Below are positions 42,101 through 61,698 of a stretch of DNA of 64,000 bases, in pieces (the first letter of the stretch is position 1; each line of letters starts with the position of its first letter). Origin of the DNA: Antedon mediterranea (taxonomy: Eukaryota > Echinodermata > Crinoidea > Comatulida > Antedonidae). A program made the position numbers and the translations under genes. The notes beneath the pieces are model-generated. The model saw only the letters and a program-made list of their open reading frames with translations, made no database searches and was not told where the DNA came from. The stretch covers positions 17,667,201-17,731,200 of the forward strand of contig NC_092670.1 in NCBI RefSeq assembly GCF_964355755.1. The letters are read 5' to 3'.

Positions 42101-45100
42101 CTGCATGTTTTGTAACTCTCTCTGGCATGGTGTACTACTGCTGTGAGCGTGTGTTGGGTACATGAGTCTTAATTTTGGTGTGTGTACTGCTGTCGATTGT
42201 CGTTTTTTATCAATTTTTCTCGCCAGAAAGAAAGTATGGAATCCCTTTGCGACAGTTATGGTTACTGGTGTGAGCCTGAATATACAGAGAGCGAATTAGT
42301 TGCTCGTAGCTTAAATAGAGACAGGTTAAACGAAATGGATAAAAATTCGCGCGTAAACCAGTCGGTTGATAAATGGTGTACATGCGGCCTGTGTGTAAGA
42401 ATGTCCGTTGATGTTAAATGTATTTGCTGTAAAGAATTAGAGACTGGAAAACATGTAACCCTTTCCCATTGACGAACTCGATCTATTTGTACAGCCGATA
42501 GCTGTATGTACAAAAGACCATTTTGCGGTTATACAATTAACTATTTAAAATCACAAAAAGATGAAGAACAAAGCGTAAAATGTATACAGTACTGTCAAAG
42601 AGATTACTAAAAAGGTGTAGATTTTTTTTATTCGCGAACACCAATGAACAATAAAACAACCCGGAACCACGCGCTCTTCTCGCTCCTCGCTTGACTGCTC
42701 GCTGGGTCACCGATTTCAGCCAATCAATGTAAGGGATTAGATTAACCAATCATAGCATACCTATACAACCGCGAGGCTTAAATTCGACAAAGGACGTATC
42801 TGACGTCATAAATAAGCTGTAAGAGCATAAGATGGCGATTTTCAATTCAGGAAAAGTCAGCATTAAAATCTCGTTTTCTCAATAACTACAAGTCGTACAA
42901 AATTGAATTATATACTGATAGTTTGTTCAATTAATGAAGGATTCATGGTTAAAAGATAAAATTAGGCTTGACCTTCCCTTTAAGGCAGGGGCCAGCCAGC
43001 CATAAACAGTCGGCTATTTTCTAATCTGTATCTTAACATTATCAGTTGATGTAGAATGTGTTACAACTGTCTTATAGTAGGTTATATCACCAAGAACATA
43101 GGATTTTATCAATATTAATAAATGTTTGTTTATTTTTCTAGTGGTTTTGTAACTCTTTCTATTTTCAGAAACAAGACAATTTCTAGATAAATTATGTACT
43201 AAATTAGAATGCGAGTGTGCTCCACCAAGAACAACAGCAAGACTTATAGACAAGGTAACAAAAACACAACAAGATATTAGAAAGCTTTTTATTTGCGACA
43301 ACTGACGACCAAGCTTAGTCATATTAGTTCATTGTGCACATGCAGGGATATTGAGACGCATGTTTAGATGGTTTCTAGATGACCAAAAACACATCAATTG
43401 ACCTGACCTACGTTGGTCAACTGTCTCAAATCAGAAGCTCCCTAATATCTGACTTGCTGGCCAAGTAATCTAAGAATAAGCATTTAGAACAAACTAAAGC
43501 TGATTTTAAGGCATCTAAATGTTTAATTGAATTTGTATTTATTATTTCAGTTGGTTGGTGATTATATTGAACCCACCTGTATCAACCCCACGTTTATAAT
43601 GGACCATCCTGAAATCATGAGCCCTCTATCTAAGTGGTATGTGTAACTTTTGCAGTTTGTAAACAGCTGGCCACTAAAGATGACTGACCAAGTGTCTATT
43701 GAAAATATTTTAATGCAATTACTGTAGTAACTATTTCCATTGCTACAGTAATATGTAAGTTGAATTACTGAAAATATGAGTTATTTAAATTACAGGGCAA
43801 CAATGCTTCAATTACTGCAGTAACTGTAGTACTATGTTTTCTTTTTAGGCACCGTTCAGTTAAGGGATTAACTGAGAGATTTGAATTATTTGTAATGCAG
43901 AAGGAAGTAGTAAATGCATACACTGAACTGAATGACCCAGTGGTACAAAGGGAAAGATTTGACATGCAAGCTAAGGTGGGATTAGTAGATTATTTTAGAG
44001 ATTATCTAAATTCTAAATTCATTTGTAGACAGAGATAGACAATAAACTGCATTGAATCAACAATATTGTACAAGACATGTAACAGTATTTCTATTTGAAA
44101 CTTGGTGGTATAATCTATCTGAAATTATTGACCATATAATGTACATATTGAATAATATTATAAATGCTGTTTTTCTAGGATAAGGAAGCAGGGGATGATG
44201 AAGCCCAGGCTACTGATGAGAATTTCTGTACTGCTTTAGAGTATGGCCTACCACCCACAGGGGGCTGGGGCATGGGCATTGACAGGCTAACTATGTTCCT
44301 CACTGACTCAAACAATATCAAGGTAAAACAGACATAGAGTATGGCCTACCACCCACAGGGGGCTGGGGCATGGGCATTGACAGGGTGACTATGTTCCTCA
44401 CTGACTCAAACAATATCAAGGTAAAACAGACATAGAGTATGGCCTACCACCCACAGGGGGCTGGGGCATGGGCATTGACAGGCTGACTATGTTCCTCACT
44501 GACTCAAACAATATCAAGGTAAAACAAATGTAGAGTATGGCCTACCACCCACAGGGGGCTGGGGCATGGGCATTGACAGGCTAACTATGTTCCTCACTGA
44601 CTCAAACAGTATCAAGGTAAAGCAGACATAGAGTATGGCCTACCACCCGCAGGGGGCATGGTCATTGACAGGCTGACTATGTTCCTCACTGACTCAAACA
44701 GTATCAAGGTAAAACAGACATAGAGTATGGCCTACCACCCACAGGGGGCATGGTCATTGACAGGCTGACTATGTTCCTCACTGACTCAAACAGTATCAAG
44801 GTAAAACAGACATAGAGTATGGCCTACGACCCACAGGGGGCTGGGGCATGGTCATTGACAGGCTGACTATGTTCCTCACTGACTCAAACAGTATCAAGGT
44901 AAAACAGACATAGAGTATGGCCTACGACCCACAGGGGGCTGGGGCATGGGCATTGACAGGCTTATTATGTTCCTCACTGACTCAAACAATATCAAGGTAA
45001 AACAGACATAGAGTATGGCCTACCACCCACAGGGGGCTGGGGCATGGGCATTGACAGGCTGAATATGTTCCTCACTGACTCAAACAGTATCAAGGTAAAA

Positions 45101-61698: not shown

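Follow-up and report, generated by a model that had tools for sequence, protein, structure and literature searches.

The minisatellite of the human IFI6 gene consists of a 12-bp unit present in about 26 copies. It supplies multiple splice donors, and the use of downstream repeat units leads to three mRNA species (PMC4526556). Work on these minisatellite donors dates from 1995, and is named in that paper and referenced in another (PMC2572611). Human genes in segmental duplications carry internal tandem repeats at exon-intron borders, with 27 intron modifications described, and these repeats have a mean unit of 30 bp, present four times, for 160 bp in all (PMC2812944). Introns are also accepted to arise by tandem genomic duplication of exon segments bearing AGGT (PMC3443670). 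In Drosophila, genes on the Y chromosome have giant introns that contain satellites (PMC11207136).

Here we describe KARS1 of the crinoid Antedon mediterranea, in which the end of one exon, and probably that of a second, has been multiplied together with its splice donor inside the following intron. The gene lies in the window, by which we mean the whole 64,000-nt stretch of DNA analysed, and all positions are those of the window. Exons were located with a human protein query, and their borders were set at AG/GT. Fourteen coding exons were found on the plus strand between 9782 and 61698: exons 1-5 at 9782-9923, 10290-10452, 10547-10640, 10867-10949 and 11561-11664, exons 6-10 at 12374-12499, 12841-12960, 13393-13555, 41409-41585 and 43169-43254, and exons 11-14 at 43551-43636, 43849-43975, 44179-44322 and 61600-61698. 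The start-codon exon was not found, and exon numbers count only the 14 that were located. Joined together, these exons form an intact frame of 570 codons whose sole stop is the final one, and the product matches human lysine--tRNA ligase (6chd_A, E 2.8e-277, residues 1-559); a complete class II LysRS frame with proper splice borders is present, and the gene is KARS1, as a preliminary description of this DNA had proposed. Of the 13 introns between the exons found, 11 measure 94 to 1583 nt and two are huge, intron 8 at 27,853 nt and intron 13 at 17,277 nt.

Intron 13 is made up almost entirely of a tandem array with a 98-bp unit (array 1, 44237..61318, plus strand). Tandem Repeats Finder (TRF) gives the same limits, with a period of 98, 176.6 copies and 94% matches, and anchoring resolves 177 units, 176 of them whole and the final one incomplete, with 47 distinct sequences. 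The 176 spacings between units are mostly 98 nt (115), followed by 92 (32), 99 (10), 97 (9), 94 (6) and 96 nt (4). Unit 1 is exon 13 itself (44179..44322), the penultimate exon found and the one numbered 15 in the preliminary description, whose last 84 nt form the first copy and which ends ATCAAG/GTAAAA (here and below a slash within a sequence marks the exon-intron border). This seed unit of 98 nt (44239..44336) comprises the 84 exon nucleotides, starting at GAGT, and 14 nucleotides of intron. Its limits are ambiguous by 2 nt, a TA being common to both sides of the junction, so that homology begins in exon 13 at TAGAGT or GAGT and reaches 14 nt past the donor, or 12 if the TA is counted with the following unit. 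Direct reading thus agrees with the preliminary description, which had an exon end and its donor (84 and 14 nt) amplified about 175-fold within an intron of its own gene; the acceptor at 61600 and the last coding exon (61600..61698, ending TAA) fit this placement. The amplified exon end was also said to be the end of catalytic motif 3, and this agrees with our reading.

The sequence AAGGTAAAA occurs 163 times in array 1, as the true donor and 162 decoys identical to it over nine bases, compared with 0.17 occurrences expected from composition; it is found neither in the rest of the window nor on the opposite strand of the array. The decoys are thus as exact as had been claimed, but they do not number in the hundreds. 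The shorter AAGGTAAA occurs 170 times, true site included, and GT is kept at the donor position in all 176 whole units. Skipping the true donor would lead the ribosome into an in-frame TAG at 44335..44337, and the first decoy junction, at 44420, lies 83 nt further on. Every unit had been said to have an in-frame stop shortly after its donor; one occurs within five codons in 170 of the 176 whole units, and the six exceptions are a single 94-bp unit type in which AAG is lost and the donor has become CCT/GTAAAA. At the far end, splicing at the last AAGGTAAA decoy (61249..61250, with 61249 as its final 'exon' base) would shorten the intron to 350 nt.

Array 1, as assembled, shows block copying. 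A segment of about 8 kb (44456..52389), whose doubling is absent from the preliminary description, recurs at 52577-60418 without a single substitution, the first copy being longer by one 92-bp unit, and 69% of units are equal to the unit 83 places further on. Exact repeats of 6171, 1758 and 1616 nt were found, with the 1616-nt block doubled inside the 8-kb duplication. There is no gradient of similarity to exon 13 along the array (means of 3.2-3.75 differences in blocks of 16 units, the first mean being lowered since exon 13 is there compared with itself), and the exon 13 copy is no closer to adjacent units than to distant ones. Some 8 kb free of substitutions is either a very recent duplication by unequal exchange or an inflation of the assembly, and the count of 177 units consequently carries an uncertainty of roughly twofold. 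Part of the length may be an assembly product in which two near-identical versions, whether alleles or a loop in the graph, were set in tandem, leaving a real array of about 90 units. We regard this as a serious possibility, though we lean against it. The substitution-free recurrence and the shift of 83 units speak for it, and a difference of one unit is what two alleles would show; it is also compatible with variation in repeat number, all within one assembled sequence. Smaller exact blocks, of 1616 nt here and 1270 nt in the second array described below, suggest that block duplication occurs at this locus anyway, and the doubling leaves out two units at the start of array 1 and 900 bp at its end. 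Even if the assembly were inflated, the array itself and its origin from an exon would remain.

The main new element, an addition to the preliminary description, is a second array in intron 8, with an 80-bp unit in about 136 copies (array 2, 13534..24336, plus strand, TRF). Exon 8 has its true donor, CTG/GTAAGT, after position 13555, and the end of the exon, TCATTGTTGTCTG followed directly by GTAAGT, is part of the array 2 unit. The part of the unit that looks intronic aligns to exon 8 from GAGTTCAC on with five short gaps, 79 exon nucleotides facing 62 in the unit (17 nt having since been lost). Outside the obvious overlap, the unit scores 30 against exon 8 and 10-18 against the 13 other exons. 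A score of 30 was reached by none of 5000 first-order Markov resamples (best 28) and by one of 10,000 plain shuffles (best 32). On this alignment, the seed of array 2 was probably a 97-nt segment (13477..13573, plus strand) in which the final 79 nt of exon 8, beginning at GAGT, are followed by 18 nt of intron. With 79 and 18 nt in one case and 84 and 14 nt in the other, both seeds are donor-spanning and 97-98 bp long, both arrays overlap exon and intron, and both exon parts start with GAGT, to which we give little weight. Random pairs of units (1500 per array) differ at 3.9% of positions in array 1 and 9.4% in array 2, and the greater divergence suggests that array 2 is probably older. Its GT is kept in 132 of the 135 units examined, and the true donor nine-mer in nine. 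BLAST of the 14 exons (E 0.05), which could miss strongly decayed copies, revealed no donor-spanning copies of the other 12, for which there were only two chance-like short matches of 19 and 20 nt. An array derived from an exon had been called unusual, and the presence of a second one in the same gene strengthens that view.

Intron 8 also contains a third tandem array, with a unit of about 1.26 kb (27119..39801) and higher-order spacing near 4.24-4.30 kb, which is not exon-derived. All four frames tested in this intron, one of them just outside the array, match Pfam Integrase_H2C2, a zinc-binding domain of retrotransposon integrases, and these minus-strand fragments mark the array as retrotransposon-derived. 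The gene is therefore inclined to expand in tandem from more than one kind of seed, and donors are spanned by two of the three seeds. Elsewhere in the window, arrays of a 16-bp GGGCGACTTTGCGATG-like unit lie at 6412-6610 and 8232-8428, in opposite orientation and about 1.8 kb apart, and may be subterminal repeats belonging to a single mobile element. Two similar tracts of TGTCGGTC at 62666-62713 and 63310-63345 are each followed by CGGTCCGGTATCACTATGC, forming direct repeats about 640 bp apart. Nine stop-to-stop frames of at least 110 aa lie on the minus strand, opposite to KARS1, and none on the plus strand; two upstream of KARS1 have no Pfam match. No RNA family reached its gathering score in the sequence, and IMG/VR held no match to one 26-base array word.

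The explanation we favour, and think probable, is that donor-spanning tandem duplications grew by unequal exchange and were tolerated because splicing pairs the acceptor of each exon with its first donor. Two separate tandem duplications of about 97-98 bp, each running from the interior of an exon to just past its donor, would have arisen in one working KARS1 and, through unequal exchange and the copying of blocks, been enlarged into kilobase-scale intronic minisatellites. The layout of the arrays, the unbroken frame, the drift of the units and, as assembled, the block copying are shown by the data. Such a duplication would leave the acceptor, the exon and the first donor in place, which may be why the arrays were tolerated. 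The spliceosome would pair the real acceptor with the nearest donor, through exon definition and co-transcriptionally, and the later donors and their stops would be removed as intron along with everything past the first donor. Occasional use of a second or third donor would meet a stop within five codons and give a truncated mRNA, or one degraded by nonsense-mediated decay (NMD), and such a leak would be a bearable cost rather than a device.

Donor regions may instead be preferred, with the exon-intron border itself starting duplications, through paused polymerase, nascent RNA bound by U1 or an R-loop, so that arrays recur there. The two arrays in one gene differ in divergence, their seeds are 97 and 98 nt long, and both start at GAGT and end 14-18 nt past the donor. 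A 98-bp seed placed at random spans a donor, with at least 50 nt of exon, in 4.8% of places (placement over the 11,489 non-array bases, computed after the data had been seen); two such arrays are therefore a hint of more than chance, with a probability of about 0.002 for two of two seeds, or 0.007 with the third array entered as a miss. The argument is nevertheless post hoc and concerns two cases in one gene, survivorship would yield the same bias, and the third array is transposon-derived and lies away from any border. We therefore consider such an origin of these arrays unlikely, and think it rather unlikely that exon ends with their donors are the preferred satellite seeds of this genome, a border-linked and perhaps co-transcriptional process repeatedly making repeats of 97-98 bp. 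Were donor seeds preferred, introns would be swollen by decoys that reproduce exactly the splice sites of the gene itself.

The weakness of the true donor of exon 13 counts against our explanation. U1 pairing of the exon 13 donor is -6.8 kcal/mol, among the six weakest of the 13 KARS1 donors and the same as that of its identical decoys, so that strength does not favour the true site. At array 2 the true donor has -11.0, compared with -7.0 for the commonest decoy (56 of 135 units). Upstream of the array 1 decoys lies native exon sequence of up to 84 nt, and the first two decoys would give exons of 242 and 340 nt. With 13 of the 170 AAGGTAAA donors the intron would be of ordinary size (94-1583 nt), compared with the 17,277 nt that the true donor needs. 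When two strong copies of a donor are present, the intron-proximal one is reportedly favoured in vitro, and if introns are defined as units in this species a late donor should win; both points likewise speak against our explanation. KARS1 is an indispensable gene, and together with the intact frame this means that, provided this locus is the working copy, the first donor must be used at a sufficient rate. How one donor is chosen is a genuine problem, though it need not be a difficult one: exon definition can settle it, and IFI6 provides a precedent.

Acceptor-like sites were scored with a small position weight matrix built from the 14 real acceptors, which makes for a rough sequence test. None of the 1118 AGs of array 1 reaches the median of the real sites and 54 reach the weakest, so the decoys would lack a strong acceptor with which they could define an exon. 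As acceptors, the 170 AAG/GTAAA sites do not exceed -2.0 bits, compared with 0.9 to 11.2 bits for real sites (each left out in turn), and recursive splicing or new exons within array 1 were rejected on these two results. In array 2, 357 of 604 AGs reach the weakest real acceptor (best 6.1 bits, none at the median), and with these better AGs pseudo-exons appear less firmly excluded there than in array 1. A G-quadruplex was set aside as a cause: when a single unit from either array was folded with such structures permitted, ordinary stems were preferred. Premature polyadenylation was also rejected, AATAAA and ATTAAA being absent from array 1 and occurring zero and two times, respectively, in array 2.

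It had also been suggested that nonsense-mediated loss could tune expression; on the version considered here, leaky later donors would give nonsense mRNA and array length would set the leak. In exon-junction NMD a stop 50-55 nt upstream of a junction suffices, and the TAG read after skipping the true donor is far enough from the first decoy junction; most array 1 units provide a prompt stop, and GT is kept in all whole units there and in nearly all in array 2. The donor nine-mer, however, is no more conserved than the remaining unit in either array. As few or fewer variants than in the nine-mer are found in 50 of 90 nine-base stretches of array 1 (the donor included), and in array 2 the nine-mer is less well conserved than 55 of 80 stretches. 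In array 1 the GTAAA core is invariant, a property of six of the 94 five-base stretches there, and this is a weak sign of donor upkeep. The loss of AAG in six array 1 units, the scarcity of the true nine-mer among array 2 decoys and the fact that nearly half of array 1, as assembled, is a fresh copy of another part also argue against tuning. Variants among the 47 unit types, read in the exon frame, comprise seven synonymous and 28 nonsynonymous changes and no stop, a synonymous share of 20% compared with the 23% expected without selection (from all possible single changes). We conclude from this comparison that the units appear to drift neutrally, which leaves tuning unsupported as an adaptation and, on our assessment, improbable. 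A protein-coding role of the repeats was rejected on the same neutral-looking variants. That the locus is a non-expressed copy, with an array-free KARS1 working elsewhere, is very improbable given 14 intact exons with proper borders, 570 open codons and an alignment to human LysRS over residues 1-559.

KARS1 offers a natural test of donor choice among identical ones. Full-length decoys carry the 84 nt of native exon context, and donor strength or exonic enhancers within that stretch can therefore hardly discriminate between true and false donors. What is left to distinguish them at exon 13 is where each lies with respect to the acceptor and when it is transcribed. The true donor entails a 17-kb intron, whereas the last decoy entails one of 350 nt, a length usual for this gene; the use of opposite ends of the array is therefore predicted under exon definition and under intron definition. 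The presence of two such arrays in one gene also raises the question of whether donor-spanning duplications are merely tolerated or preferentially made.

The arrays can be set beside the systems described at the outset. A donor-spanning array of this size, or two in one gene, was not among the matches listed in the open-licence literature, but subscription journals are mostly outside the literature covered and this is weak evidence of absence. The satellites in Drosophila Y introns are not known to derive from an exon end and donor of the gene that harbours them. They resemble the KARS1 arrays as long tandem arrays in working genes that are transcribed and spliced out (PMC11207136). In intron gain by AGGT duplication, as here, an exon piece with AGGT is doubled and the extra copy removed as intron, but there the second AGGT becomes the acceptor of a new intron, whereas in KARS1 an existing donor is spanned and an existing intron lengthened (PMC3443670); array 1 has AGGT in its duplicated segment (AAGGTAAA, 170 times), but by the rough matrix the AG of the copy is not predicted to serve as an acceptor. 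The repeats in segmental-duplication genes likewise lie at exon-intron borders, expanding in one lineage and changing splicing, but the KARS1 arrays are about 100 times longer and occur in the gene of a housekeeping enzyme (PMC2812944). In IFI6, as in KARS1, a tandem repeat sits at an exon end, each unit carries a donor, and the cell chooses; array 1 matches it in having unit-borne donors like the true one. It differs in its 98-bp unit, 84 nt of which are catalytic exon, compared with 12 bp, and in its 177 units over 17 kb. In addition, the later donors of IFI6 give three mRNA species whereas those of KARS1 lead to stops, and KARS1 has a second array (PMC4526556). Donor-bearing minisatellites are thus known from IFI6, and two kilobase-scale arrays in one gene are a large new variant of them.
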